DNA of 57,094 nt from Dehalococcoidia bacterium (lineage in GTDB: Bacteria > Chloroflexota > Dehalococcoidia > DSTF01 > WHTK01), in the NCBI GenBank assembly GCA_035574915.1, contig DATLYJ010000046.1, positions 1 through 57,094 on the forward strand, read 5' to 3'. The translations under genes were made by a program, and so were the position numbers. The number at the start of each line of letters is the position of its first letter. Position 1 is the stretch's first letter. Positions 26 to 16,336 of the stretch are shown here, in pieces. Below the pieces are notes generated by a model. The model saw only the letters and a list, made by a program, of their open reading frames with translations, was not told the origin of the DNA and did not search any database.

Positions 26-2866
26 GTGGCGTCAAACGCGTATCAGACCAACCGTTTCCCGGTTGGGTCCCTTGTCAGGTCTCGGGGTAGGGACTGGGTC
101 GTGCTCCCGTCTGAGGAGGACGATGTCTGCCTGCTCAGACCCGTCGATGAAGGCGACGCTGATGCAGTCGGTCTTTACCTTCCCTTGGAAGGCGACAGTG
201 TCGTTGCCGAAGCTACGTATCCTCTGCCAGATGCCGCGCGCTCCAGAGACTTCGCTGGCGCGCTCCTACTTCGAGATGCAGCTCGCTTCAGCCTACGGTC
301 TGGCGCTGGCCCGTTCCGTTCTCTGGGACGGATCTCGGTCGAGCCTCGCCCCTACCAGTTTGTGCCCCTCCTTCTGGCTCTCAAACAGAAGCGAGTCCGT
401 CTCCTCATCGCCGACGACGTTGGCGTCGGTAAGACGATCGAGGCCGGTCTGATCGCCCGGGAGCTCTTGGACAGGGGAGAGATCCGACGCATTGCCGTGC
501 TATGCCCCCCTCACCTTTGCGACCAGTGGGAGCAGGAGCTGCGGGAAAAGTTTGGCCTCGAAGCTGTGGTTGTTCAGCCGTCGCGCATGGGAGGACTGGA
601 GCGCAGTTTGCCCCGCGGTGACATTGGCGTCTTCCAGTACTACCGCCACTTCGTCTGCAGCATCGATTACTTGAAGGCTGGCCGTTATCGCGACGCCTTC
701 CTGTCCAACGCGCCCGACCTGATCATCGTTGACGAGGCGCATGGCGCATCGCGGCCTAGCGGCGCGGACCCTGGCCAGCATCAGCGATACGAGTGCGTCC
801 GAGACGTGGCGCGATTAGCCAATCGGCACCTCATTCTGGCAACCGCCACGCCGCACAGTGGTATCGAAGAAGGCTTTCGGTCACTCCTTGGGCATCTTGA
901 TGAGTCGTTCGACGTGCCGGCAGACAGGCCGTTGGACACCAAGAGACTCCTTCCTCATGTCGTCCAGCGCCGCCGCAAGAGCATCGAGCGGTGGATGGGC
1001 GCCTCGACTGCATTTCCCGACCGCGACCCCGTCGAGGCCGACTACGCGATGTCGGCACGGTACCAGCGCCTATTCGATGCCGTGGCCGCATACTGCCGCG
1101 AGTCTGTCAGTGACGGCTCACTGGGACGGCCTCAGCAGCGCGTGCGCTACTGGGCTGCAATCGCGATCCTGCGCTGCATTCTGTCCAGCCCCAAGGCCGC
1201 TGAGGCGATGCTGGAGAACCGTAAGCAGCGCCGCCGGGAGAAGGCAATGGAACAGCCCGAGACCCCGGACGACGTGGACACATCGTTGCGACCTCAAGTC
1301 CTCGACCTGGAGGGCGACGAAGAGGCACCCGATTACACGCCTGCGGCGGAGGGCGCCGACCTATCGGACGCGGAAATCCAGAAACTGGACAGCTTCCTCC
1401 GGGAGGCCAGGCAGCTCTCGGGAATGGCCTACGACGCCAAGCTGGAGCGCTGCTCCAGCCTGGTCGAGAGTCTCCTCAACGATGGCTTCTCGCCAATCGT
1501 CTACTGTCGCTTCATCGCTACCGCGGACTACGTGGCGGAGGAGCTTCAGCGTGAGCTGGGGCGCCGCGTGCCGGGGCTACGAGTGATTTCCGTCACTGGA
1601 AACGACGGTGATGAGAAGCGCCGGGAGAAGATCGACGACCTCGTGAAGAACCACGAGGTCCGCGTGCTCGTGGCCACGGACTGCCTGAGTGAAGGGATCA
1701 ACCTCCAGGAGCACTTCAACGCCGTGCTTCATTACGACCTGCCCTGGAACCCGAACCGCCTCGAGCAGCGGGAGGGCCGGGTTGACCGCTTCGGCCAGCC
1801 GAGCAAGACGGTACGCACGGTGCTGCTCTACGGCCGAGACAATCAGATGGACCTCATTGTCCTCAGAGTCTTGATCCGAAAGGCCCGCGAGATCCGCGCC
1901 AGCTTGGGCGTTGCGGTGCCCGTGCCGGTGGATTCCGAGCAGGTGATACAGGCGCTCGTCGACAGCGTCCTCCTGCAGGGTCGCGGCACGGCGCCCGGGC
2001 AGATGGCCCTACCCTTCGATGACCAGCGCGTGAGCCAGCTCCATCAGGCCTGGGACAAGGCAAAGGACCGTGAGGCCGAAATCCGAAACGTCTTTGACCA
2101 GGCGGGGATTCAGCCGGAGGAAGTAGCCCAGGAGCTTCGTGAGGTGGAGCCTGCGCTTGGCTCGAAAGAGGAGCTCCGGAGCTTCCTCGCCAACGGGCTG
2201 CAGCGGTTCAACGGCTACCTGAGGGAGACCAAGACTCCGGGCGTGTTCGAACTCGATCCCGGCGACCTCCGGCCAGTCGTCCAGCGCAGGACTACCCTGG
2301 AGCGCTTTCCCCTACGCGTTGTCTTCGAACAGACGACGGAGAAGAACGTGGTGCACGTCGGCCGCAATCATCCGGTAGTCGCCGCGCTCGCCGATTCGGT
2401 GCTGGCACGAGCGCTCAGCGGAGACTCCGAATGGTTCTCCCGCAGCGGAGCCATCTTCACCAACTCTGTGCGCGGCCGCACGGCGGTCTTGCTGCTGCGC
2501 TTCAGATACTCGATGCAGGCAGAAGGCAACCAATTTGCCGAGGAGGTCCTGACGGCGGCCTTTCAGTCTGCTCAGGTCGGCCTGGAATGGCTGAAGCCTT
2601 ACCAGGAGGAGAGCACGAGGCTCCTGCAAGCAGCGCCGGCGGCGAATATCTCCCCCGAGGAGCGCAGACGGCAGGTGGAATGGGCGCTTGGCATGCTGCA
2701 GTCGACGCCTGGCTGGTGGGACGAGATCGCGGCCGAACGGGTGGCGCGCCTGAAGGAAGCCCATGCCCGGTTGCGCTCCTTCGTCGGCGGCGCGCCCATG
2801 CGCGTCGAGGTGCGCGAGCCCGACGTCCTCGGAGTCTATGTCCTAGTGCCGGCGGGGTTGCGCTGA
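26..2866 (+). CDS. SNF2/RapA-type helicase, DISARM DrmD-like
   Basis: A 946-residue superfamily 2 ATPase. Walker A (GVGKT) is near residue 133, DEAH at about 236, the TAT motif III near 272, and the second RecA domain ends in QREGRVDRFGQ near 581. This is the RapA/HepA branch of SNF2 helicases, which includes the DrmD helicase of class 1 DISARM. The role is probably ATP-driven DNA translocation in the cytoplasm as part of a defence complex. The GTG start at 26 follows a TATAAT by 7 bases. The stop overlaps the methyltransferase start by one base (TGATG), so the two are almost certainly cotranscribed. A chromosomal RapA-like role is possible, but the neighbours argue for defence. Genes further upstream in the island cannot be seen. 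Confidence 0.85.
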   Translation: MASNAYQTNRFPVGSLVRSRGRDWVVLPSEEDDVCLLRPVDEGDADAVGLYLPLEGDSVVAEATYPLPDAARSRDFAGALLLRDAARFSLRSGAGPFRSLGRISVEPRPYQFVPLLLALKQKRVRLLIADDVGVGKTIEAGLIARELLDRGEIRRIAVLCPPHLCDQWEQELREKFGLEAVVVQPSRMGGLERSLPRGDIGVFQYYRHFVCSIDYLKAGRYRDAFLSNAPDLIIVDEAHGASRPSGADPGQHQRYECVRDVARLANRHLILATATPHSGIEEGFRSLLGHLDESFDVPADRPLDTKRLLPHVVQRRRKSIERWMGASTAFPDRDPVEADYAMSARYQRLFDAVAAYCRESVSDGSLGRPQQRVRYWAAIAILRCILSSPKAAEAMLENRKQRRREKAMEQPETPDDVDTSLRPQVLDLEGDEEAPDYTPAAEGADLSDAEIQKLDSFLREARQLSGMAYDAKLERCSSLVESLLNDGFSPIVYCRFIATADYVAEELQRELGRRVPGLRVISVTGNDGDEKRREKIDDLVKNHEVRVLVATDCLSEGINLQEHFNAVLHYDLPWNPNRLEQREGRVDRFGQPSKTVRTVLLYGRDNQMDLIVLRVLIRKAREIRASLGVAVPVPVDSEQVIQALVDSVLLQGRGTAPGQMALPFDDQRVSQLHQAWDKAKDREAEIRNVFDQAGIQPEEVAQELREVEPALGSKEELRSFLANGLQRFNGYLRETKTPGVFELDPGDLRPVVQRRTTLERFPLRVVFEQTTEKNVVHVGRNHPVVAALADSVLARALSGDSEWFSRSGAIFTNSVRGRTAVLLLRFRYSMQAEGNQFAEEVLTAAFQSAQVGLEWLKPYQEESTRLLQAAPAANISPEERRRQVEWALGMLQSTPGWWDEIAAERVARLKEAHARLRSFVGGAPMRVEVREPDVLGVYVLVPAGLR

Positions 2867-5800
2867 TGACGCGATGGGCAACCGTCAACGTCGAAGGCGG
2901 GCTCTTCCCAGCCGACATCCTCGACGCCGTTGCTGCCGGGACGGCTGACGGACAGAGGCCGGCCGATTTCCGGCTCGAGGCGGCGCGACTGCTGGAGGAG
3001 CTGCAGGCCGCGTTCGCTGATGCCCGCTCTTACTGGGACGCCTTCCAGCGGCGGCTCGCCCGGCGCAGCGGTTCGGTCACGAGCCTCACGCGCGAGGCCT
3101 GGATGCTCCCGCTACTGGAACGGCTGGGGTTCGACCTCGAATACCAGCCGGCGGCGCTGAGCGCGGGCAACTCGACCTACACGATCTCGCACCTCCACGG
3201 GAAAGAGCCGGGCACGCCGGTGCACATCGTCTCCTTCGACCAGGAGCTCGACAAGAGCGACGCTGGAGGGAGACGCAGTCCCAACGCGCTCGTCCAGGAG
3301 TATCTGAACCGCACGGACGCCCTCTGGGGCCTGGTTACCAACGGCCGCAAGCTCCGGCTCCTGCGTGACACGGAGCGCATGGCCAAGCCTTCGTATGTCG
3401 AGTTCGACCTCGAAGGCATGATCGAGTCCGACAAGTACAGCGAGTTCGCCCTGCTGTACAGGCTCCTGCACGCGACGCGGTTCCCCCTGCCGGGCTCAGA
3501 CCCGGCGAAGTGCTGGCTGGAGACCTACTACCAGCAGGGCAACGACCTCGGCGGCCGCGTGCGCGAGGGCATGCGCGATGGCGTTTCGGCCGCGCTCGAA
3601 GTCCTGGGCAATGCTTTCCTGAAGCATGACGACAACGAGCGCCTGCGCGAGGCGTTCCGCTCGGGACGGCTCAGCGCCGGGCAGTACTACCGGCAGCTCC
3701 TGCGCCTCGTGTATCGGTTCCTCTTCCTCATGGTCACGGAGGAGCGCGGGCTGGTGTTTCCCGAAGAAGAGGCTGGAAGCTCCGGCCACCTCATCTACGA
3801 CCGCTACTACAGCATCTCCCGCCTGCGCGAGCGCGCCGAGCGCTATTACGCCGAAGACCGCCATTACGACCTCTGGGAGGGCGTCAAGTCCACCTTCGCC
3901 CTGTTCCGCGAGGACGCGCTGGCGCGCAAGCTCGGGCTGCGGGCGCTCGACGGCGAGCTCTTCGGCGAGGACGCCTGCGCCGACCTGGAAGCGTGCCGTT
4001 GCCTCAACGCCGACCTGCTGCGCGCCGTGCGCGAGCTCTCCACCTACCGGCAGGAGAAGGGGCCGCGGCGGCGCGTCAACTTCCGCGACATCGACGTCGA
4101 GGAGTTCGGTTCCGTCTATGAGAGCCTGCTCGAGTATCACCCCGTTGTCGACGTGGAAGGGCAGAGCTTCTCATTCCTGAGCGGCAACGAACGCAAGTCC
4201 ACCGGCAGCTACTACATGCCCAGCTCGCTGGTGCAGGAGCTGGTGCAGAGCGCGCTGGTGCCTGTGCTCGAAGAGCGCGTAGCCGCCGCGAAGACGCGCG
4301 ACGAGAAGGCCGCCGCTATCCTCTCGATGCGCGTGATCGACCCCGCCGCCGGCTCCGGGCACTTCCTGCTCGCCGCGGCGCGGCGCATGGCGCGAGAGCT
4401 GGCGCGCGTCCGGACGGACGAGGCGGAGCCGTCCGTGGAGGACTACCGCCGCGCCCTGCGCGACGTGATCCGCAATTGCATTTACGCCGTCGACAAGAAC
4501 CCGCTCGCGGTCGACCTCTGCAAGGTGGCCCTGTGGATCGAGGGGCACAACGCCGGCCTGCCGCTGGGCTTCCTCGACCACCACATCAAGCTCGGCGACA
4601 GCCTCGTCGGCGTCTTCGACCTGGCCGTCCTCGAGGACGGCATCCCGGACGACGCCTACAAGCCCGTGACCGGCGACGACAAGGCCGCGGCGCGCTACTG
4701 GCGCGACCTCAACAAGAAGCAGCGCGCGGGCCAGCTACGGCTGGCAGCGTTCGACCCGGAGGCCCTGGAGAGGAGCCTTGCGCCCGACTTCGCGGCGCTT
4801 GGCGAACTGGAAGACGACTCCCCTCCGGACGTGAGGGCGAAGCAGGAGCTCTACGCCAGGCTGCGCGCCGGCGGCAGCCAGTGGTGGCGCCTCAAGGTCG
4901 CCTGCGACCTCTGGACCTACGCCTTCTTCGCGCCGCTTGAGCCGCAACCAGAGCTAGCCCAGCAGACCGTCCCGACCACGGCCTTGGTCTGGGAGGCTAT
5001 GGCTGGTGGAACCACACATGCTTACGCTCAGGCAAAGGCGATGGCTGAGTCGGCCGTCCATCCATACTTCCACTGGCCACTGGAATTCCCGGATGTATTC
5101 GCGGACCGCGGATTCGAGGTGGTCCTTGGAAACCCACCATGGGAAAATATCCGCGCTGATCCTGTCGAGTTCTTTGCTGGAATCCATCCGAGCATCGTTA
5201 GCGCGCCATCCGCATCCCTTCGGGAGCAAACCATTCAGTCTCTCCGAGAGGCGAGGGATCCGTTTGCACGAATGTGGGACGCGCATGTTCGGTCTATTGA
5301 AGGCCAGCAGCTGTTTGTAGGGGAGAGCGACCGATTCCCCTATGGCGCCTCAGGCAAGACGAACACGATGCCGTTGTTCCTAGAGTTGTTCTCCGCAGCC
5401 ATCTCCAAAACCGGCCGGTCAGGGATCATCGTCAAGAGTGTGATCGGTACGGACCTGGAATATCAACGCTTATTCGAGCACTTGGTCGAGGAAGGGCGGC
5501 TTTACTCATTCTATGACTTTATCAATGAGCAAGAGCTCTTTCCGGCTGTTCACCGGCAGGAGCGATTCGCGTTAGTTACCTTAGCGCCTCCAGGCACGGT
5601 GACTCGGAGCAAATTCAGGTTCCTCGCTAGGGCCACGACGGAGTTGCAGGACTCCGGCTCAATTTTCGAACTGTCGGGAACAGACTTGAGGATGCTCACC
5701 AATGGATCATGTCGGTTGCCCACAATTAGTGATTCGACTTTGTTGCGTATTCTGAGAGCTGTTGCTCAATCCGCCAAGGGCAGCTCATTCCTCGGCCCTG

Positions 5801-6831
5801 AAACACAGCTCGACAGTTACATTATGTTTGACAGTGGGGCCGCGAGTTCTGCAAAGGGCGGATGCACTCTTCCTGACTACGTCCCTGGGGAGGGGAACAA
5901 TCCCCTTGAAGGCACAAATAGGTTTGGGGAAGCTGTAGTCGCGGTCTACGAGGGCAAACTCTTCGGAATCCTGGACCATCGTTTAAGAAGTTTTGAGGGC
6001 ATTCCCGTAGAGCGGCGGTATGGCAAGACTCCAGCAACATATGAACTAACGATAGCTGACAAAGAGGACCCGAATCGTTCCATTGAGCCGCGCTACTGGG
6101 TACCAAAAGCTGTCGTAAAGAACAAGCTGAACGTGAAGGGATGGAGCCACGATTGGATTCTTGTTCATGGGAGAAAGTCTAATCGTGATAACAAGCGCAC
6201 TTTCTCGGCTGCCTTTATTCCGCTGACAGCATCCGTAGACCTGGCGCCTGTATTACTGCCAACATCTGGTTCCGACATCGCTCCAGTCCTAAGAGCTGCA
6301 GCCGTTAGTCAATCATTTTCTTTCGACTTTTTAATCCGAAGTCGGCTTATAGGTTTCACAATTGGCAAGAATCTACTGGAAGAAATTCCAGTACCAAGTC
6401 CAGCACGTTTCTCCGAGGCTTCTCCTTGGGGCAATGGTGAGTCCATCGATGTATGGTGCTGTACTAGGGTGTTGGAGCTGACGTACACAGCCTTTGACCT
6501 GACATCGTTAGCACGCGACCTCGGGTTTCCCGGTCCGCCGTTCCTTTGGGACGAAGAACGTCGGTTCCTCCTGCGCTGTGAGCTGGACGCAGCCTTCTTC
6601 CACCTCTACGGCATCGAGCGCGCGGATGTTGACTACATCATGGAGACGTTCCCAATCGTCCGTCGCGAAGACGAGAAGCAGTTCGGCGAGTTCCGAACGA
6701 AGCGCGTCATCCTGGAGATGTACGACCAGATGGCCGAGGCAGTGAAGACCGGCCGCCCGTATCAGACATGGCTCGATCCGCCGCCGGCAGACCCGCGGGT
6801 TGCCCATACAGCCGTTGGAGGCAGAGCGTGA
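2866..6831 (+). CDS. Large adenine-type DNA methyltransferase, DrmMI / type IIG-like
   Basis: A 1321-residue N6-adenine methyltransferase of the Eco57I/PglX kind. SAM-binding motif I (DPAAGSGHF) is near residue 490 and catalytic NPPW near 756. The N-terminal 450 residues include LVTNGRKLRLLRD, typical of long restriction-modification methylases; I see no clear PD-(D/E)XK triad there. The start is the ATG that overlaps the helicase stop; the frame stays open upstream only as a shadow. The C-terminal half, from about base 4975 on, should contain the target-recognition region and is much poorer in GC than the first half. By analogy with DISARM, BREX and type IIG systems it would mark host DNA as self. 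Whether it also cuts cannot be told from sequence. Confidence 0.85.
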   Translation: MTRWATVNVEGGLFPADILDAVAAGTADGQRPADFRLEAARLLEELQAAFADARSYWDAFQRRLARRSGSVTSLTREAWMLPLLERLGFDLEYQPAALSAGNSTYTISHLHGKEPGTPVHIVSFDQELDKSDAGGRRSPNALVQEYLNRTDALWGLVTNGRKLRLLRDTERMAKPSYVEFDLEGMIESDKYSEFALLYRLLHATRFPLPGSDPAKCWLETYYQQGNDLGGRVREGMRDGVSAALEVLGNAFLKHDDNERLREAFRSGRLSAGQYYRQLLRLVYRFLFLMVTEERGLVFPEEEAGSSGHLIYDRYYSISRLRERAERYYAEDRHYDLWEGVKSTFALFREDALARKLGLRALDGELFGEDACADLEACRCLNADLLRAVRELSTYRQEKGPRRRVNFRDIDVEEFGSVYESLLEYHPVVDVEGQSFSFLSGNERKSTGSYYMPSSLVQELVQSALVPVLEERVAAAKTRDEKAAAILSMRVIDPAAGSGHFLLAAARRMARELARVRTDEAEPSVEDYRRALRDVIRNCIYAVDKNPLAVDLCKVALWIEGHNAGLPLGFLDHHIKLGDSLVGVFDLAVLEDGIPDDAYKPVTGDDKAAARYWRDLNKKQRAGQLRLAAFDPEALERSLAPDFAALGELEDDSPPDVRAKQELYARLRAGGSQWWRLKVACDLWTYAFFAPLEPQPELAQQTVPTTALVWEAMAGGTTHAYAQAKAMAESAVHPYFHWPLEFPDVFADRGFEVVLGNPPWENIRADPVEFFAGIHPSIVSAPSASLREQTIQSLREARDPFARMWDAHVRSIEGQQLFVGESDRFPYGASGKTNTMPLFLELFSAAISKTGRSGIIVKSVIGTDLEYQRLFEHLVEEGRLYSFYDFINEQELFPAVHRQERFALVTLAPPGTVTRSKFRFLARATTELQDSGSIFELSGTDLRMLTNGSCRLPTISDSTLLRILRAVAQSAKGSSFLGPETQLDSYIMFDSGAASSAKGGCTLPDYVPGEGNNPLEGTNRFGEAVVAVYEGKLFGILDHRLRSFEGIPVERRYGKTPATYELTIADKEDPNRSIEPRYWVPKAVVKNKLNVKGWSHDWILVHGRKSNRDNKRTFSAAFIPLTASVDLAPVLLPTSGSDIAPVLRAAAVSQSFSFDFLIRSRLIGFTIGKNLLEEIPVPSPARFSEASPWGNGESIDVWCCTRVLELTYTAFDLTSLARDLGFPGPPFLWDEERRFLLRCELDAAFFHLYGIERADVDYIMETFPIVRREDEKQFGEFRTKRVILEMYDQMAEAVKTGRPYQTWLDPPPADPRVAHTAVGGRA

Positions 6832-8744
6832 AGCTGGTCGAAGTTCAAGTTCAACGCTTCCGGAACTTCATCGATTCAACTCCTGTCGCCGTTCAGCCGG
6901 ACATTACGTGCCTCGTGGGCAAGAACGAATCGGGCAAGTCGGCATTCCTTCACGCCTTGTACCGGCTAAACCCCGCCAGGCCCAACGTTAAATTCTCCGC
7001 CCCTGACGATTACCCAGCGTGGCTAGAGAAACGGGACAGACTCCAGGGCGTCAAAGTGGAAGAAGTGCTGCCGGTCAAAGGGGTCTTTGAGTTTGAGACT
7101 AGCGACCGCGTGGCCCTGGAACAGCAGTTCGGGCCCGGTGTCTTGAAACAGAAAGCGCTGGTTCTTGAACGCCAGTACGATGGTCTGCTCGTCCATGACC
7201 TCGATGTCAATGAAAAGGCTGTCGTTCGTCACATACTCGACACGACGGATATTCCAACCAAAATCAGGAATGCAGGCAAGCCCCTGGAGACCATCGACGG
7301 GCTAAAGGAATTCATTCAGTCAGTTCAAGCCGAGGACTCGGCGTCTGGGTCCGGCGAAGCGGCTCAAGCTTTGGAGAAGCGGCTGAGCGAAGTACTGCGC
7401 AACAGGACACCAGTGGACGTAATCTGGGACGCCGTGGAAGAACTACTCCCAGAATTCTTCTACTATCACCAGTACAGCAACTTGCCCTATTCGGTAAAGA
7501 TTGCTCGAGTGCTGAAGGAAGATCCGCGCACTCTAGATGACAGTGAACTAACTGCGCGCTCTCTGCTTAAGCTTGCTGCTGCGGAGGACCAGTTTCTCCT
7601 CAATCCGGATTACGAACGCCGTAAGCGCGAGCTCGAAAATGTTGCCAACAGCATCACTCAAGACGTACGCAAATATTGGACCCAGAATCCTGAGCTGCGC
7701 GTTCAGCCGGATATAACGCAAGTGGCCGAAACCAATTCACAGGGGGAGCGCGCCGTCTTAGATGAATTGAAGATCCGTGTCTGGGATGATCGCCACTCCC
7801 TTTCGCTGCCCTTTGACCAGCACTCAACCGGATTCCAATGGTTCTTTTCCTTCCTCGCTGCGTTCTCGGAATACGAGTACAAAGACACCCCAGTCATCAT
7901 CCTTCTTGACGAGCCTGCACTTGGGCTGCATGGCCGCGCGCAGGCAGACTTCCTTCGCTTCATCGAGGAGCGCTTGGCAACAAAGCACCAAGTCCTATAC
8001 ACAACGCACTCCCCTTTCATGATTCAGCCGGGCAGGCTTGAGAGGGTTCGAATAGTCGAGGACCACGGTCCGGAGAAAGGTGCGGAGGTAACACAGAATG
8101 TCCTGACAAGCGACCAGGACACGCTGTTCCCGCTCCAAGGGGCCTTAGGCTATGACCTCGTTCAGCACTTGTTCATTGCACCTCATAACCTGCTTGTCGA
8201 AGGGACAGCCGACTATACCTACTTAACGGTGATTTCCGACCACCTGAAGCAGGCCGGTCGTACCGGATTGGACGAGCGTTGGTCGATAATTCCTGTCGGC
8301 AGCGCCGATATGATTCCAACGTTCGTTGCTCTACTTGGTCACCACTTGGAGGTCACCGTCCTGATTGACTCGCGACGAGCCGGCCATCAACGGCTGTCGC
8401 AGCTAGCAGCCGATGGGTTCCTAAATCAGCAGAGGATTATTACGGTTGGACAGGTGCTTAGTCGAAGACTCGCCGACATTGAGGACCTGTTCACTGTGGC
8501 TGACTACCTACACCTATACAACAAAGCCTTCGGAGGATCAGTCTCAGAAGCAGACTTAGCGGGCACGGATCCCGTCGTGAACCGGTTAGCGCGCCATCAA
8601 GGCGTAGAGCGATTTGATCACGGTCGCCCTGCTGACGTACTGCTACGACGCCGGGACGAGCTCTTACCCCAACTCAGCCCTGAGACATTTGAACGTTTCG
8701 AGCGCCTCTTTCAGTCGATCAACGCCACACTACCCAAGGACTGA
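6828..8744 (+). CDS. OLD-family ATPase with degenerate TOPRIM-like domain
   Basis: A 638-residue AAA/ABC-type ATPase. Walker A (GKNESGKS) is at residues 31-38, a degenerate signature (HSTGFQW) near 333, and Walker B (ILLDEPALGL) near 357. A TOPRIM-like region follows with LLVEGTAD near 455 and LIDSRRAG near 512. OLD-family nucleases such as GajA of Gabija couple ATP sensing to DNA nicking through acidic TOPRIM residues. Here the position after D-S is Arg instead of the usual acidic residue, so nuclease activity is uncertain. The GTG start at 6828 overlaps the methyltransferase stop by 4 bases (GTGA), implying translational coupling. GC content is clearly lower than in the flanking helicase genes. 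Confidence 0.8.
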   Translation: MKLVEVQVQRFRNFIDSTPVAVQPDITCLVGKNESGKSAFLHALYRLNPARPNVKFSAPDDYPAWLEKRDRLQGVKVEEVLPVKGVFEFETSDRVALEQQFGPGVLKQKALVLERQYDGLLVHDLDVNEKAVVRHILDTTDIPTKIRNAGKPLETIDGLKEFIQSVQAEDSASGSGEAAQALEKRLSEVLRNRTPVDVIWDAVEELLPEFFYYHQYSNLPYSVKIARVLKEDPRTLDDSELTARSLLKLAAAEDQFLLNPDYERRKRELENVANSITQDVRKYWTQNPELRVQPDITQVAETNSQGERAVLDELKIRVWDDRHSLSLPFDQHSTGFQWFFSFLAAFSEYEYKDTPVIILLDEPALGLHGRAQADFLRFIEERLATKHQVLYTTHSPFMIQPGRLERVRIVEDHGPEKGAEVTQNVLTSDQDTLFPLQGALGYDLVQHLFIAPHNLLVEGTADYTYLTVISDHLKQAGRTGLDERWSIIPVGSADMIPTFVALLGHHLEVTVLIDSRRAGHQRLSQLAADGFLNQQRIITVGQVLSRRLADIEDLFTVADYLHLYNKAFGGSVSEADLAGTDPVVNRLARHQGVERFDHGRPADVLLRRRDELLPQLSPETFERFERLFQSINATLPKD

Positions 8745-8752
8745 AACGCTGC

Positions 8753-11700
8753 ATGGACGTCTTCAAGCTGCGCGACGCCGTCGTTAACGAGTACCGCTCG
8801 TACGTCGAGAGCTTCGTCCGCGTGTACGACAAGCGGATAGACGAATTCGTGCGGCAGAAGCTGGCGGAAGGCCACCTCTGGCCGGAGGCCTATCTGCAGC
8901 TGAACCCGGCCTACGAGGCGACTGACACGCTGGGCGAGCTGGCGCGGCAAGGCGTCATCGAGGAGACGACGGCCCGCTTCTTCGGGCCGGACATCCGGCT
9001 CCACCGCCACCAGCGCGAGGCCCTGGAGATAGCGCAGCGTGGGGAGCCCTACGTGGTGACGACGGGCACGGGCTCCGGGAAGAGCCTGACGTACCTGGTG
9101 CCGGTCTACGACGCAATAGTGCGCGCGCGGCCCGAACGGCACTCGGTGCGAGCTATCGTCGTCTACCCGATGAACGCGCTGATCAACAGCCAGCTCGAGG
9201 CCCTGCGTCAGTACGCGGCGAAGAGCGGGATTAGAGACGTCCGCTTCGATCAGTACACCGGCCAGACGAAGAACGAGGACCGTCCACGCATCCTGGACGA
9301 CCCGCCGCACATCCTTCTCACGAACTACATGATGCTGGAGTACATCCTCACCCGCCCCTTCGAGCGCAACCTGCTCAGGACAGCGACCGAGGACCTGCGC
9401 TTCCTCGTCATGGACGAGCTGCACTTCTATCGCGGCCGCCAGGGCGCGGACGTGGCCATGCTCCTGCGCCGCCTCGCCCAGCGCGCCGGCAAGGACCTGC
9501 AGTTCGTCGGCACCAGCGCCACGCTGGCGTCCGAAGGCTCACGCGCGGAACGGCAAAAGGCGGTCGCCGAATCGGCGACTCGTGTCTTCGGCGTGCAGGT
9601 GCCTCCGACAAACGTCATCGACGAGACATTGCAGCGTCTTACGGCCTCGCCGGTACCGCGGACCCGCGATGAGCTGCGCCGCGCGGTCGAGGCGCCGCCT
9701 CCGGCGCCGACGCTGGATGCGGTGCGGGCGCACCCACTGGCTGCCTGGGTCGAGCACGCTTTCGGCATTCAGGAGGAGGACGGCCGCCTGGTCCGGCGTC
9801 CTCCCGAGACCTTCGAGGGCGCCGTGGGCCGGCTCGCAGAGCAGTCGGGCCTGCCGCCGGAGCTGTGCAGGGAGCGCCTGCGCGCCGTGCTCGACGCCGG
9901 CAACGCCGACACGTCGCGTCTCCCTTCCGGTGAGCCGCTCTTCGCCTTCCGGCTGCACCAGTTCCTCTCGTCCGGCGATAGCGTCTGGGCGACCCTGCAG
10001 GCGCCACAGGAACGGGAACTCACGATGGAGGGCAAGTACCTCTTCGACGAGGGACGCGTCCTGTACCCGCTCGCCTTCTGCCGCGAGTGCGGGCAGGAGT
10101 ATTACCTGGTCTCGAAGTTGGTGGAGCTGGGCAAAGAACGGCTTATCCCGCGCCCGCCGATCGTCGGCGCATCCGATGAAGAGACGGATGGTGAGAGCGG
10201 GTTCTTCGCCGTCGATGATGGCGACCTCTGGGTCGACGACATCAACGAGCTGCCAGAGCACTGGCTGGAGGAACTCCGCAGCGGCACGCGCGTAAAGCCT
10301 GCCTATCAGGAATTCCGGCCGCGCGGCTACACCGCCAAAGCCGACGGCGAACTGCGCTCTGCCGGAGAGGGAGTGGCAGGCTGGTTCATGCCACGCCCGT
10401 TCCTCCTATGTCTGCGCTGCCGGGCTACCTACGACAAGCGCGGCACTGACTTCCGAAAACTGTCATCGCTCAGCCAGACGGGGCGGTCCACGGCTACGAG
10501 CGTGATCGTGAATGCGGCCGTCACGGGAATGCGCGGCGAAGTCGAGGACGAAGCGTGCAAGATCCTGAGCTTCACGGACAACCGTCAGGACGCTTCCTTA
10601 CAGGCCGGGCACCTCAATGACTTCGTCCAGATCGCCCAGCTGCGGGCTGCCCTCGTGAGCGCGGTAAGGCGTCACGGAAGGCTGACGCACGAGCTCCTGG
10701 GCGAGCGCCTCTTCAAGGAGATGGCGCTCAAGCCAGCGGACTTCCTCAAGACGCCTGTCGAGGAGGGCAGTCCGGGTTACGAGCGCGGCCGGCGCGCGAT
10801 GGAACGGCTCCTGGCTTATCGAGCCTTCGAAGACCTGGCGCGAGACTGGCGTGTAGCCCAGCCAAACCTTGAACAGGCTGGCTTACTCCGCATCGACTAT
10901 GACGGCCTTGCGGCGCTCGCGGCCGATGACCGCCTCTGGGCGGGCCTGCCAGGAATCGGCGAAGCACCTCCTCAGCGGCGTGAAGAAGCGCTGCGGACGT
11001 TCCTGGACCACATCCGGTTCCAGCTGGCAATCGATGCTAAGGCGCTCACAGAGGACGAAACCCGCGCCTTGAGGAGTGTCACGTCTGACCTGCATGACTC
11101 CTGGGCCCTGGACGAGCGTGACATCCTCGAGACCCAGTCCATCGCCCTGTTGCCGGGCGTCCTCCCAGACGCTCGCGAGAGCCGCCAGCGGGTCTTGCGC
11201 CTGGGCCGCCGCTCTAACCTTGCGCGCTACTTGCGATCGCAGCGGACCTGGGGAACCACGCGGGACCTGGATGGCGACTCTGTTGAAGACCTCATTCGTG
11301 CCATCGTCCGGGCCTTGAACGGGCACATCCTGACGGTCATTTCCCGCAGTGGCGAAGACCGTGGCGTGAGGATCCGCGAGAGTGCGCTGATCTGGCTGCC
11401 GGGTGACGGCAGAGTGCCGCCGCCGGACCCGGTGAGAAGCCGGGACCTGCATCGTCGACGCGACTTCGGAGACGGCAAGCCGAATCAGTACTTCGCGCAC
11501 CTTTACGGCCAGGGTGCGGCAGCCCTGCGCGGGATCTTTGGCCATGAGCACACCGGCCAGGTCAGAATCGACCTGCGCCAGGAGCGGGAGCGTGACTTTA
11601 CGGACGGCCGGCTACCGGCCCTTTTCTGCTCCCCGACTATGGAGTTAGGTGTCGACATTCGGGACCTTCGCGCCGTGCACCTGAGGAACGTCCCGCCCAC

Positions 11701-13831
11701 GCCTGCGAACTACGCCCAGAGAAGTGGGCGTGCTGGCCGTGGCGGCCGCCCCGCTCTCGTTGTCACGTTCGCTGCTCAGGGGAATGTGCACGACCAGTAC
11801 TTCTTCCGCAAACGCGACCGGATGATCGCCAGCGCAGTCACACCGGCTCGTATGGACCTCCGCAATAAGGAGCTCGTCGAGGCCCACCTGCACGCAACGT
11901 GGCTTTCAATCGTGGGCCTCCGTCTAGGCAACAGCATTTCCGAGATCCTGGATGCGGACGTTATTGGCTACCCGCTACGGCAGGAAGTGCGCGATGTCAT
12001 ATACGACCGGGACAGGTACGAGCAACCTGCGCTCGAGGCCTGCCGTGAGGTCCTGAGACGAGCTCCCGAAATCATTGAGAGCGGTTGGTGGTACTCCGAA
12101 AATTGGTTGTTGGAGATGGTCGGCAACGCTCCGACTGAGTTCGACAGGGCGTTCGAACGTTGGCGAGAGGAGTATGGTGCAGCCGTCCGCATGCGCGACG
12201 CGGCAAGAGCCATCACTGACTCTCCCATGTCAAGCCGTCAGGAACGGGAGCAAGCCGAGCAGCGCGAGCGCGAAGCCAAACGCGAGATTGCACTTCTTCT
12301 GAATCAGGCCGGTCAGACCGAGACGGACTATTACCCTTACCGTTATCTGGCAGCCGAAGGATTCCTACCCGGCTATAACTTCCCGCGTCTTCCCGTGCGC
12401 GCTCTCGTCGGACGCGGAGACGAGGCCGAAGCCATCGACAGGCCTCGCTTCATTGGGCTCGCCGAGCTAGCGCCTCACAGTCTCCTCTACCACGAAGGAC
12501 GAAAGTACCGCATCGATGGCGCCGTAGTTCCGCAAAGTGGCCTGGGGAGTCGGTTCCGGCGCGCCAGGTGGTGCAAGAACTGCGGCTACGTCCATGCTGA
12601 CGACGCCTCCACCTCAGATCTCTGCGAACACTGCTCTACGCGGATGGATGCGGCGAGCTCAGACTTGAGTAGCACGCTGCTTTCACAGCCAACTATGCGC
12701 ACAAGACCGGTGGAACGTATCTCGTCCGAGGAGGAGGAGAGGCTTCGGCGCGGTTACGTTGTCACGACCCATTATCGATTCTTTCCACCCTGGCGACCCC
12801 GGCCCGGCACGGTGGTCACACCGGATGGGGAGCGTCTCTTAGACCTTCTCTTCGTGCCGGCAGGGGAACTCTGGCGAATCAATCACGGCTGGAGACGCGC
12901 TCCAAGTGCTGGATTCAAGCTCGATCCGGAGACCGGGCGCTGGCAACGACAGACCGAGGATCCAAGTCCGGATGAAGGGGACCCGGACGCGCCGCAAGCG
13001 CTATCAGGAATCAAGACCTACGTCACCGACAAGCGCAACCTGCTGTTGCTCCGCCTCGACGCTTCTCACGCCGACCGCACCTTTGCCACGACCATGATGT
13101 ACGCGCTTCGGCGCGCGATTGAGGTGGTCCATCAGGTTGAAGAGCAAGAAATCGCAGCGGAGCTGGTCGGGAAAGGTGGCGAGCAGCGGCTACTCCTCTG
13201 GGAAGCGGCGGAGGGCGGAACAGGGGTCTGGGAACGGCTCGTCGACCAACTATCGGGAATCGCTGAACTTGCCCGGCAAGCACTTATCCTCTGCCACTAT
13301 GACCCGGTGACCGGTGAGGATGACCCCGCGTACTCGGGCGACTGCATAAGCGGCTGCTACGAGTGTCTGCTGAGCTACTCAAACCAGTTAGAACATCGCT
13401 TCATCGACCGCCGCGAGATCCGTGACTTTCTTCTGAGGCTAACCTCGGCCAAAACAGAATGGGCCGCAAAGGGACGGTCGCCGTCCGAGCAATACGAATG
13501 GCTGAAGGCAAAGCTGGACCCAGCGTCCGGTCTAGGGTTGAAGTTTCTCGACTTCTTGTTCGAGAAGGGCTACCTGCTCCCCGACGATGCCGAGAATCGA
13601 CCCGCAGCCGACATTGCCGTTCAACCGGACTTCTACTACGAGAGGCACGGATCACCCGGGGCGTGTGTGTTCGTCGACGGCCCTGCTCACGATAGTGCGG
13701 GACAGTTAGTCAGAGATGCGGCGCAGCGGCAGGCGCTCGAGAACGCCGGCTATCGAGTCATCACAATACGCTACGATTCGCCTTTTGATGTTCAGGTGGC
13801 TGACCACCCGGACATTTTTGGCCGGCCTTAA
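8753..13831 (+). CDS. DruE-like DEAD/DEAH helicase with MZB/DUF1998 and C-terminal nuclease-like domain
   Basis: A 1692-residue superfamily 2 helicase. Walker A (TGTGSGKS) is at 104-111, DELH at 221, GTSATL near 253, paired Cys knuckles (CREC near 444; CLRC near 553), motif VI (QRSGRAGRGGR) near 990, further Cys pairs near 1273-1297 (CKNC, CEHC), and the MZB signature CISGCYECLLSYSNQ near 1531. The last 80 residues carry QPDFYY (D1626), then VDGPAH (D1642, H1645) and a closing GYRVITIRY strand, a pattern of VSR/DUF559-type PD-(D/E)XK folds. Druantia DruE and DISARM DrmA/DrmB contain related helicase and DUF1998 parts. The gene starts 8 bases after the OLD gene and ends the operon. Confidence 0.85.
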   Translation: MDVFKLRDAVVNEYRSYVESFVRVYDKRIDEFVRQKLAEGHLWPEAYLQLNPAYEATDTLGELARQGVIEETTARFFGPDIRLHRHQREALEIAQRGEPYVVTTGTGSGKSLTYLVPVYDAIVRARPERHSVRAIVVYPMNALINSQLEALRQYAAKSGIRDVRFDQYTGQTKNEDRPRILDDPPHILLTNYMMLEYILTRPFERNLLRTATEDLRFLVMDELHFYRGRQGADVAMLLRRLAQRAGKDLQFVGTSATLASEGSRAERQKAVAESATRVFGVQVPPTNVIDETLQRLTASPVPRTRDELRRAVEAPPPAPTLDAVRAHPLAAWVEHAFGIQEEDGRLVRRPPETFEGAVGRLAEQSGLPPELCRERLRAVLDAGNADTSRLPSGEPLFAFRLHQFLSSGDSVWATLQAPQERELTMEGKYLFDEGRVLYPLAFCRECGQEYYLVSKLVELGKERLIPRPPIVGASDEETDGESGFFAVDDGDLWVDDINELPEHWLEELRSGTRVKPAYQEFRPRGYTAKADGELRSAGEGVAGWFMPRPFLLCLRCRATYDKRGTDFRKLSSLSQTGRSTATSVIVNAAVTGMRGEVEDEACKILSFTDNRQDASLQAGHLNDFVQIAQLRAALVSAVRRHGRLTHELLGERLFKEMALKPADFLKTPVEEGSPGYERGRRAMERLLAYRAFEDLARDWRVAQPNLEQAGLLRIDYDGLAALAADDRLWAGLPGIGEAPPQRREEALRTFLDHIRFQLAIDAKALTEDETRALRSVTSDLHDSWALDERDILETQSIALLPGVLPDARESRQRVLRLGRRSNLARYLRSQRTWGTTRDLDGDSVEDLIRAIVRALNGHILTVISRSGEDRGVRIRESALIWLPGDGRVPPPDPVRSRDLHRRRDFGDGKPNQYFAHLYGQGAAALRGIFGHEHTGQVRIDLRQERERDFTDGRLPALFCSPTMELGVDIRDLRAVHLRNVPPTPANYAQRSGRAGRGGRPALVVTFAAQGNVHDQYFFRKRDRMIASAVTPARMDLRNKELVEAHLHATWLSIVGLRLGNSISEILDADVIGYPLRQEVRDVIYDRDRYEQPALEACREVLRRAPEIIESGWWYSENWLLEMVGNAPTEFDRAFERWREEYGAAVRMRDAARAITDSPMSSRQEREQAEQREREAKREIALLLNQAGQTETDYYPYRYLAAEGFLPGYNFPRLPVRALVGRGDEAEAIDRPRFIGLAELAPHSLLYHEGRKYRIDGAVVPQSGLGSRFRRARWCKNCGYVHADDASTSDLCEHCSTRMDAASSDLSSTLLSQPTMRTRPVERISSEEEERLRRGYVVTTHYRFFPPWRPRPGTVVTPDGERLLDLLFVPAGELWRINHGWRRAPSAGFKLDPETGRWQRQTEDPSPDEGDPDAPQALSGIKTYVTDKRNLLLLRLDASHADRTFATTMMYALRRAIEVVHQVEEQEIAAELVGKGGEQRLLLWEAAEGGTGVWERLVDQLSGIAELARQALILCHYDPVTGEDDPAYSGDCISGCYECLLSYSNQLEHRFIDRREIRDFLLRLTSAKTEWAAKGRSPSEQYEWLKAKLDPASGLGLKFLDFLFEKGYLLPDDAENRPAADIAVQPDFYYERHGSPGACVFVDGPAHDSAGQLVRDAAQRQALENAGYRVITIRYDSPFDVQVADHPDIFGRP

Positions 13832-13956: not shown

Positions 13957-15072
13957 TCAGCCCCCGGAGTCTCGCAATGTCAGTTTGATTGGCGCACCGA
14001 CTTGGTTCGCCTCGGCATAGGCGGAGGTCAAGGTTTCAAGGAGACTCTCGGCAAGGGAGTGGACACGTAGATATGTTCCTTGCTTGAGCTCTGCTGGAGC
14101 GATCTCTCTTTCGATGAGAGGGATTGCGGTGGGAGCTCGGCGTTCGAAGACGCTCCTCCAGTACTGGAGGAACGCCCTGCCGCGTTCGTTCCAAATCGTG
14201 ATCAGACCAACATTGTCCGGGCGAAGCCGGGGAAGCAGGGTAACGGCCCCGGATCTTCCTACGTAGCTCGCGAGAGTCGCGAGGTTCCTCGCTTCCATTT
14301 CTTCAGCCCAATCCGCGAGAGCTTCCAGGACTGGTTTGAATTCTGGAAGAGCATCGTCGATGCTGCGTCGAAACTCTGACGCGCCAGGTGACAGGATTCC
14401 TCCTCCCCGCTCGCGCTGAGGAATCGGTCGTTGTTCGCGTATGCTAGCTCGCTGCTCGGGCGCAATCCTCTGCGGCACTACTACCTGCGATCCGCCGACG
14501 TGGTACGACGCCACGGCGATGAGGTCGATGGAAAGCTTCTCGGAGACGGCCTCTAGAAATCCCGATAGCATGACGAGTTCTTCCGGTGCGGAGTCAAGCA
14601 CGAATACGAGCCGAAACCTGCCCTCAATGAGGCTGGCCGCGAGTGCGTCATTAAACTCGCCAACGTCGAAGCTCCCTTCCTGATGGTTCGCTGCCACCAT
14701 GTCCGCCAGTGTGGCGTAGCCGCGACTTTGGAGATGGGTGGCCAACAAGGTTTCCAGTTCACTGACCGAAAACCCATGCAAGTACGCAGCGTAAGCAAGT
14801 ACCTGGGCGATGACGGCCCGCCTGGCCTCAGCATTCCGCGAGAGCTTTACTTCGATGACCGCCAAGCGGCCCTTGGGATCAACTGCTATCAAGTCGGCGA
14901 TGCCGGTGCCGAGCCGGACCTCTCTCCCAACGATTACGAGGGAAGGGGAGCCGGCCAGAGGCAGCATCTGTGGTTCGCGTTCAACCAGCGTGTGGAGCGC
15001 TGCCTCATCGGGAAACCCGGAGGGAGCGAGCAGTTTCCAGCCGTCGCCGTCGTTTTGCCAGATCGCCGTCAT
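13957..15072 (-). CDS. PD-(D/E)XK endonuclease-like protein
   Basis: A 371-residue protein with a clear N-terminal nuclease core: D60 in GTGIADLIAV, E74 and K76 in VIEVKL, and Q90 in the next helix, matching the D...ExK...Q pattern of NucS/DUF91-like and related PD-(D/E)XK enzymes. The rest (about 150-371) has no motif I recognise. The ATG at 15072 was chosen because MTAIWQNDGDG leads directly into the core and the longer upstream frame is low in recognisable content. It faces the defence operon tail to tail across about 125 bases, so it could be an accessory gene of the island or an independent DNA-repair or restriction nuclease. Confidence 0.7.
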   Translation of the reverse strand: MTAIWQNDGDGWKLLAPSGFPDEAALHTLVEREPQMLPLAGSPSLVIVGREVRLGTGIADLIAVDPKGRLAVIEVKLSRNAEARRAVIAQVLAYAAYLHGFSVSELETLLATHLQSRGYATLADMVAANHQEGSFDVGEFNDALAASLIEGRFRLVFVLDSAPEELVMLSGFLEAVSEKLSIDLIAVASYHVGGSQVVVPQRIAPEQRASIREQRPIPQRERGGGILSPGASEFRRSIDDALPEFKPVLEALADWAEEMEARNLATLASYVGRSGAVTLLPRLRPDNVGLITIWNERGRAFLQYWRSVFERRAPTAIPLIEREIAPAELKQGTYLRVHSLAESLLETLTSAYAEANQVGAPIKLTLRDSGG

Positions 15073-15223
15073 GGCTCCAAATTCTAGCGCGGAAGCGCGG
15101 GGCACGATGTTAGACCCAGCCGGACGGCGGCCTGATCTGTTACGGCCGCGGGCGGGCGAGCCAGCATGGTGAGGCCGAATGCTAGAATCGCCTTCGCCCG
15201 ACTGATGAGCGAGAGGTGGCGGT

Positions 15224-16336
15224 ATGGCCGATGACGTGTTCGACCTGCGGCAGGCGGTCAGCGCCGAGCACGCGCCGATGTCGGCGCTCGACGAGTTGCC
15301 TGTGCACCAGTGGTCCGAGCAGGAGATGCGCTTCCAGAGCACTACGGACCCGCGCGCCTACGAGCGCTACTGGTTCACGGCGCAGGACCGCACCGGCGAC
15401 CTCTTCGTGGTCACGGGCTTCGGCCTTTACCCGAACCTGCGGACGGTGGAGGCGTACTCGATCGTGAACCTGCGCGGCCAGCACACGACGGTGCGGGCGC
15501 ACAGGCGCCTCACGGCGAACCGCGCCGACATGCGGGTGGGGCCAATCGACTTCAGGCCGCTACGGGCGTTCGGCGAGTGGCGCCTGACGCTGGACCCGAA
15601 CGACTACGGCATCTCCTACGACCTGCGCTGGCAGGACACGAAGCGGGCCGTGCTCCAGCCCATCCGGGGCCTGGGCGGCTACGAGACCTTCGGCCGCGTC
15701 AGCGGGGAGGTCACGGTGCAGGGCGAGCGCTTCGAGCTTGCGCCGGACCTCTATTGCGGCTCTCGCGATCACCACTGGGGCGTCCGCGACGGCGTGGGCG
15801 GGCGGGGCCATATGCTCAACCCCGGCGGCACGAGCGTCGCCACGGGCGGTGTATGGGTGGAGTTCGGCGACTGGTCCGTCTGGCTCAACCGCATCCTTTA
15901 CAACCTCGGCGACAAGCGGCCCGGAGCGGGACAGATCGTCGCCATGGAGCGGCGTCTGAGCTTCGAGCCGGACACCCACATCTTTACGGGCGGGACCGTC
16001 AGCATCACGCTCCAGGGTGGGGAGAAGAGGGACCTGCACTTCCGGCGCCTGGGCTTCCAGACGGCCTACCTCCGCTGCGGGATGTACGGCGGCCGCGAGG
16101 GCGGCACCCCGAACGGCGACATCTGGCACGGAATGTACGTCGGGGACAACGTGGTGTCCGGCGAGACGTACGACACCACCGACCCCGCGGTGCGCCTGCA
16201 CATCGCCGGGGCCGCCGACCACCACTGTGAGGTGCGCTGCGGCGACGAGGTCGCTTACGGCATCTTCGAGTCGCACGACCCGATCACCTGGGAGATGGCG
16301 CGAGACGGCCGCCCCGGATACAGTCTGATCGAGTAG
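15224..16336 (+). CDS. AttH/CrtC-like lipocalin-fold protein, function unknown
   Basis: A 370-residue soluble protein with a GSRDHHWG motif near residue 181, then long beta-rich stretches. The RDHHWG element and general layout resemble the AttH / hydroxyneurosporene-hydratase-like (CrtC) superfamily, whose members act on terpenoid or other hydrophobic substrates, but I cannot name a substrate. GAGAGGTGG just before the ATG serves as ribosome binding site, and a TAGAAT at 15183-15188 is a possible -10. An SDR epimerase follows after about 100 bases on the same strand, so the two may share a transcript. Confidence 0.5.
   Translation: MADDVFDLRQAVSAEHAPMSALDELPVHQWSEQEMRFQSTTDPRAYERYWFTAQDRTGDLFVVTGFGLYPNLRTVEAYSIVNLRGQHTTVRAHRRLTANRADMRVGPIDFRPLRAFGEWRLTLDPNDYGISYDLRWQDTKRAVLQPIRGLGGYETFGRVSGEVTVQGERFELAPDLYCGSRDHHWGVRDGVGGRGHMLNPGGTSVATGGVWVEFGDWSVWLNRILYNLGDKRPGAGQIVAMERRLSFEPDTHIFTGGTVSITLQGGEKRDLHFRRLGFQTAYLRCGMYGGREGGTPNGDIWHGMYVGDNVVSGETYDTTDPAVRLHIAGAADHHCEVRCGDEVAYGIFESHDPITWEMARDGRPGYSLIE

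Follow-up and report, generated by a model that had tools for sequence, protein, structure and literature searches.

An OLD-family gene within a Type I ARMADA operon of a Dehalococcoidia bacterium

The stretch of DNA analysed here (the window) is an entire contig, DATLYJ010000046.1 (C46; 57,094 nucleotides), of a draft Dehalococcoidia genome (3.25 Mb, 183 contigs), and it opens with an operon of four genes. Judging from sequence similarity, the first, second and fourth genes almost certainly represent armA, armB and armC of a Type I ARMADA operon, and the third encodes a protein of the OLD family. The core is an ordinary Type I ARMADA, and the new part is the OLD add-on. The arrangement can be written as armA-armB-[x]-armC, where x is a stand-alone-type OLD ATPase/TOPRIM gene, and we consider it likely, with appreciable reserve, that it works by the stepwise scheme presented in the last section. 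OLD would then probably serve as a co-transcribed second nuclease; its co-transcription, nuclease activity and coupling to ARMADA are what we infer. The features of the locus are the following.

26–2866, plus strand: armA, 946 amino acids from a GTG start, complete; RapA/SNF2-type (BrxHII/DrmD-like) helicase.
2866–6831, plus strand: armB, 1321 amino acids from the ATG at 2866; PglX/DrmMI-like N6-adenine DNA methyltransferase.
6828–8744, plus strand: OLD-family gene, 638 amino acids from the GTG at 6828; extra gene in the ArmB-ArmC slot.
8753–13831, plus strand: armC, 1692 amino acids; YprA-family DEAD/DEAH helicase with a DUF1998/MZB canopy.
13517–13828, plus strand: nuclease domain of Vsr/EDxHD fold at the C-terminus of ArmC (residues 1589–1692).
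1–136, no strand: assembly overlap, shared with the 3' end of C8, another contig of this genome, and showing the upstream content.

Assignment of the core genes to ARMADA Type I

ARMADA was defined by Bell et al. in a preprint of September 2025 by three proteins: ArmC, a YprA-like helicase with a C-terminal Vsr nuclease, ArmA, a BrxHII/RapA-like helicase, and ArmB, a PglX-like methyltransferase (PMC12458937). Type I operons usually follow the order C-A-B, with A-B-C found in many archaea and cyanobacteria, and Type II operons the order A-B-C-D, where ArmD is RelE-GajB-like; the latter protect E. coli from phages without cell killing (PMC12458937). The original prediction, that the four genes correspond to no named system, does not apply to genes 1, 2 and 4, since this trio is both named and widespread, and it stands insofar as the operon is distinct from DISARM, BREX and Druantia.

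Comparisons across 84,980 species genomes showed that ArmC is 38–58% identical, over its full length, to most of the 80 loci recovered (locus numbers with the prefix L are ours), with homologs of ArmA and ArmB flanking it. The full trio, with all three proteins matched, was present in 57 loci, most of them in the order C-A-B (42) and the others in the orders A-B-C (12), B-C-A (2) or mixed (1). The products of the first two genes (P0001 and P0002) likewise match ArmA and ArmB of ARMADA loci over their full length, with identities of 51% and 44%, respectively, to those of the SAR202 locus L029. In a FastTree phylogeny of 99 YprA proteins, ArmC fell in a Type I clade of 95 members (support 99), with two Type II sequences placed outside, and within this clade in a subclade of seven (support 100) shared with SAR202, other Chloroflexi and genomes of the same class, in which armB lies upstream of armC wherever it could be placed. 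This tree was built without the named Type I reference sequence of the preprint, and, given a long-branch warning for the outgroup, BRIGADE and Type II sequences, the position of this ArmC is surer than how deep the split lies.

The operon thus shares with Type I the full-length homologous ArmA, ArmB and ArmC, the combination of YprA helicase, DUF1998 and C-terminal Vsr-type domain, the absence of ArmD, and an A-B-C order as in archaea and cyanobacteria. It differs in the OLD-family gene between armB and armC and in a Vsr domain without the conserved glutamate. With Type II (E. coli ATCC 8739 and NCTC 12900) it has in common the armA-armB-armC order and homologous core proteins, but identity to the ATCC 8739 proteins is 23–36% and local only, the ArmC proteins belong to separate clades, and the terminal armD of Type II (encoding a GajB-like helicase with a fused RelE-like domain) was not found after armC, nor was a UvrD gene in the operon. 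The main text of the preprint names neither OLD, TOPRIM nor GajA, while its supplementary tables S1 and S2 could list OLD-bearing ARMADA (PMC12458937).

The family labels originally given to the genes hold at the superfamily level and need refining below it. ArmA carries the motifs GVGKT (Walker A), DEAH, SEGINL and QREGRVDR, and among the PADLOC models it scores highest, over its full length, against "DpdE" (PDLC02853; 593 bits), with DrmD, the label first proposed, in second place (327 bits). The score of gene 1 against the NCBIfam DrmD model was 361, under the cut-off of 610, and the NCBIfam cut-offs for DrmD, DpdE and BREX PglX were all missed widely. The same PADLOC outcome was obtained for ArmA of a SAR202 ARMADA locus (575 bits to PDLC02853), and this model appears to capture ArmA proteins. 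ARMADA loci are therefore easily misnamed by annotators, as PADLOC-DB 2.0 calls Type I ArmA "DpdE" at 575–593 bits over the full length. ArmB possesses the motifs DPAAGSG and NPPW. Gene 4, originally described as DruE-like, is not close to Druantia DruE, its identity to E. coli DruE being about 22–28% and local, against the full-length similarity to Type I ArmC given above.

Gene loss from some subtype of DISARM, Druantia, Dpd or BREX would account for the PADLOC matches to the DpdE/DrmD, DrmMI and DruE models, and DISARM class 1 and Druantia do share helicase and methyltransferase superfamilies with this operon. This origin is scarcely credible, given that ArmC is nearest to Type I ARMADA and that the NCBIfam cut-offs were missed. 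The DrmA/DrmB split, DrmC and DruH that mark DISARM class 1 and Druantia are missing, and neither these genes nor dpd biosynthesis genes, pglZ or brxC were detected in the operon, at the C8 end or in the immediate flanks. No whole-operon match to a known DISARM, BREX or Druantia subtype was found, in agreement with the original prediction, and membership in DISARM, Druantia, Dpd or BREX was rejected on family scores, absent partner genes and the full-length similarity to ARMADA loci.

The Vsr-type domain of ArmC and the OLD protein

The fold of ArmC was examined with an AlphaFold2 model of residues 1148–1692 (46 sequences, predicted local distance difference test score 88.6), the N-terminal two thirds of the protein lying outside the model. 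The canopy of this model matches DrmB (Z 12.3) and MrfA (Z 11.8), and its C-terminus matches I-Bth0305I (Z 9.0, root-mean-square deviation 3.0, 90 aligned residues) and Vsr (1cw0; Z 8.3, root-mean-square deviation 2.4, 90 aligned residues). I-Bth0305I is the representative of the "EDxHD" family, whose name spells out the conserved catalytic residues (PMC3943268). The glutamate of the Vsr domain is kept in 87 of the 95 Type I ArmC proteins, and at its position this ArmC has Gly1595 (codon GGG), followed by Leu1596. The residues D1626, D1642 and H1646 are retained, and the activity of the domain is doubtful. Type I ARMADA helicases are further marked by BrxA-like and zinc-binding inserts; in this ArmC, CxxC pairs were noted at 443, 553, 1274, 1291 and 1535.

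Because the glutamate is retained in the five aligned members of the subclade (L028, L029, L037, L109 and L110), its loss is placed on the branch of this ArmC alone, as is the gain of OLD. The two events falling on one branch make up a single coincidence, which constitutes no test; a link between the OLD gain and the glutamate loss is what we infer. Separately, a Chloroflexales clade of ArmC (L020, L031, L046, L060, L061 and L062) has a strongly degenerate Vsr domain, and stronger decay was also seen in L098 and L103. These eight loci were examined for a general association of degenerate Vsr domains with extra nuclease genes; the neighbouring genes are mixed and the contigs short, and we claim no such association.

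The third gene had been assigned to the OLD family, and this was confirmed. Its product is an ABC/SMC-type ATPase (AAA_15) with a full Walker set (GKNESGKS, LLDEP, TTHSP), joined in one protein to a C-terminal TOPRIM-type region with LVEGxxD, DS and IEDLF motifs, and both its sequence and its predicted model match the OLD protein of T. scotoductus (6P74), GajA and PtuA. Of the acidic residues of a canonical two-metal TOPRIM site, D534, E572/D573 and, in VEGxxD, the E and D are kept in this region, which is modelled with middling confidence; the second D of DxD is replaced, as in most close relatives. The protein resembles Class 1 OLD (P2 Old and T. scotoductus OLD) in its ATPase and TOPRIM combination, in the single-gene relatives on phages and plasmids and in having 6P74 as its best sequence match among solved structures, but it differs in lying inside the operon of another defence system and in a DxD-like motif whose second acidic position is substituted in this subfamily. 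With Gabija, formed by a Class 2 OLD (GajA) and GajB, it shares the OLD nuclease fold, and Type II ARMADA has a GajB-like helicase where this operon has a GajA-like nuclease; unlike in Gabija, no GajB/UvrD helicase adjoins the OLD gene.

Junctions, composition and rarity of the OLD insertion

The four genes are long, complete, co-directional open reading frames on the plus strand, all intact, and their helicase, methyltransferase and ATPase motifs are undamaged. The junctions are those originally described: an overlap of one base (2866), an overlap of four bases (GTGA, 6828–6831) and a gap of eight bases (8745–8752). The start codon of OLD shares bases with the stop codon of armB, and both armB and armC are undamaged. 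Starting instead at the in-frame ATG at position 6768, OLD would have 658 amino acids, but its homologs begin near 6828. These tight junctions (GTGA overlap and 8-nucleotide gap) and undamaged neighbours argue that OLD is a working member of the operon.

The possibility that upstream genes had been cut off is settled by the assembly overlap. The first 136 nucleotides of C46 are identical to the last 136 of C8 (27,074 nucleotides; C8:26939–27074), which places C8 upstream, and no further operon gene lies there, armA being preceded by a gene with an AhpC/TSA domain. The reading frame of gene 1 extends back into C8, and its N-terminus aligns with those of relatives such as L029 at the GTG at 26. 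On the other side, the next gene (13957–15342) is on the opposite strand. The flanks resemble an ordinary chromosome, with genes for an epimerase, an IMPDH-like protein, COX1 and an Lhr-type helicase.

The guanine-plus-cytosine (GC) content of OLD is 0.548, against 0.62–0.64 in armA to armC, and GC at third codon positions (GC3) is 0.62 in OLD, 0.75–0.77 in armA to armC and about 0.9 in most of the flanking genes checked. By these values the operon has the look of foreign DNA in the chromosome, and OLD that of a foreign gene in the operon. The lower GC of OLD suggests that it may have been acquired separately. The divergence of relatives in this region is too great for an empty-site comparison.

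Recurrence of the set was examined by tblastn with the OLD protein (P0003) against 80 genome-contig ARMADA loci, 11 loci from the class, 5 plasmid loci and viral-contig loci, and by an OLD-family hidden Markov model run on the open reading frames of ARMADA loci. No homolog of this OLD was found in about 95 other ARMADA loci, many of which end at contig ends, and the profile search gave only weak matches, in L083 (AbiLi-like) and L097. Among 393 genomes of the same class, ArmC was present in 14 and a P0003-like OLD in 14, and only the genome of the window had both. In 10 OLD-bearing genomes, no ArmC was detected with the same query that had matched 14 of the 393. The co-occurrence of the four genes elsewhere, on which the original prediction had made its proposed system depend, was thus not found in any other locus examined, and because no other locus had all four, the OLD gene is a variant-specific addition and not a core member.

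Cargo of the ArmB-ArmC slot and possible coupling of OLD to ARMADA

Of the 12 other A-B-C loci, 10 have more than 1.5 kb of cargo in the slot between armB and armC, such as PIN/AbrB genes (L023 and L025) or an AAA+ gene plus a subtilase (L099). In the close relatives L029 and L037 the slot is almost empty, and in L028 (58% identity in ArmC), which falls outside the 12 as its armA lies past the contig end, it contains HicAB and a small SecB-like open reading frame. ArmD-type genes were also observed in Type I loci. Cyanobacterial slots contain a ParE/RelE-like plus GajB-like helicase gene (L041, 7595–9679; L045, 7597–9669), with content that looks alike in L048 (7597–9669) and L056 (7429–9579), and in mycobacterial loci of C-A-B order (L070, 23217–25121; L102, 22122–24203) the gene after armB is 36% identical to E. 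coli ArmD. The main text of the preprint places such a gene only in Type II, after armC (PMC12458937).

Modules of ATPase or TOPRIM type recur in or beside other Type I operons. Locus L097 (15729–24006) has the order C-A-[AAA_21 ATPase and a 195-amino-acid protein with TOPRIM-like motifs]-B, each junction spanning just a few nucleotides, and in L083 an AbiLi-like ATPase adjoins armB. A full Gabija (GajA 280 bits, GajB 293 bits) lies directly upstream of armA and in the same direction in L184 (G199, contig C30; 13925–17592, minus strand), whose genome belongs to the class and ArmC subclade of the window. On a viral contig (L175; 4486–9237; 53% identity in ArmC), ArmB reaches 1583 amino acids through a C-terminal extension of 265 with the motifs LFVEGITD ... 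ADNDSAG; this extension is TOPRIM-like by motif only, with no Pfam or PDB sequence match, and armA is rearranged. The insertions of OLD, L097, L083, G199 and L175 are not homologous. Their recurrence weakly suggests a functional pull between ARMADA and ATPase/TOPRIM-type effectors.

A stepwise scheme can be proposed for the operon, which by analogy would act in phage defence. The ArmA motor, the ArmB methyltransferase and the ArmC helicase would act jointly on phage DNA, in the direct, non-abortive manner of E. coli Type II. ArmC, as its MrfA/DrmB-like modelled fold suggests, would load on DNA and translocate with the DUF1998 canopy. DNA cutting would normally be carried out by the Vsr-type domain at the ArmC C-terminus, which is in doubt here, where the near-invariant glutamate is gone. 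OLD would then supply a second DNA cutting activity, which would either take over part of the work of the weakened Vsr domain or form a second line that acts once the first is blocked. A functional tie between OLD and this ARMADA seems on balance the better expectation, and the particular role of stand-in for the Vsr domain is rather doubtful.

Several observations weigh against the scheme. The loss of one glutamate does not prove an inactive nuclease, as D1626, D1642 and H1646 remain, and in L083 and L097 ATPase modules stand beside an ArmC with an intact glutamate. This OLD subfamily has an atypical TOPRIM motif (DSRR, against DSD in distant relatives), and the four-gene set was seen once. 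The contrast in GC and GC3 indicates that OLD may be a recent passenger, and its relatives (30–65% identity) are solitary genes carried by chromosomes, plasmids and viral contigs. In addition, the anti-phage assays of the preprint cover the E. coli Type II ARMADA only (PMC12458937), and the role of Type I is by analogy.

The last observations on OLD itself also fit a self-sufficient phage-exclusion gene of stand-alone (Class 1) type that was inserted in a cargo slot and is merely co-transcribed, as would the unrelated cargo of the same slot in L028, L023, L025 and L099. This is possible, if somewhat improbable: the junctions are exact and armB and armC unharmed, other ATPase/TOPRIM-type modules recur in or beside Type I operons, and the ArmC glutamate was lost on the branch where OLD was gained. 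A special case of the second line, which we regard as rather unlikely, is that OLD stays silent while ARMADA is intact and is released when a phage protein disables it. There are precedents in PrrC, an ABC-ATPase effector that its linked type I restriction enzyme keeps silent and that the phage anti-restriction peptide Stp activates (PMC2610378), and in P2 Old, lethal to cells that lack RecBC (PMC10568477), indicating that an OLD protein can respond to the loss of a host DNA-degrading machine. The AbiL-like and Gabija modules that accompany other Type I operons, within or next to them, would suit such a backup role, but the argument is one of precedent, and no silencing contact is visible in the sequence. 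An assembly chimera or a pseudogene arrangement, to which the 183-contig draft, the contig break at armA and the different GC of OLD might point, is very improbable, as both junctions are in-frame, tight and gap-free within one contig and the four open reading frames are intact.

The favoured reading, a Type I ARMADA with OLD as a probable second nuclease, has several implications. The operon offers a natural test of the role of the ArmC Vsr domain, with this domain seemingly damaged and another nuclease in the operon. OLD proteins are known from single-gene, Gabija, retron and PARIS contexts; on a bolder reading, which we regard as rather unlikely, an ARMADA-embedded OLD that replaces or backs up a degraded ArmC Vsr nuclease would be a further one. 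If this bolder reading is true, Type I ARMADA would repeatedly recruit SMC-type ATPase/TOPRIM second-line effectors (OLD, AbiL-like, Gabija and a TOPRIM fusion). ARMADA operons seem to have a plug-in slot for extra effectors, which bears on how layered bacterial immunity is assembled.

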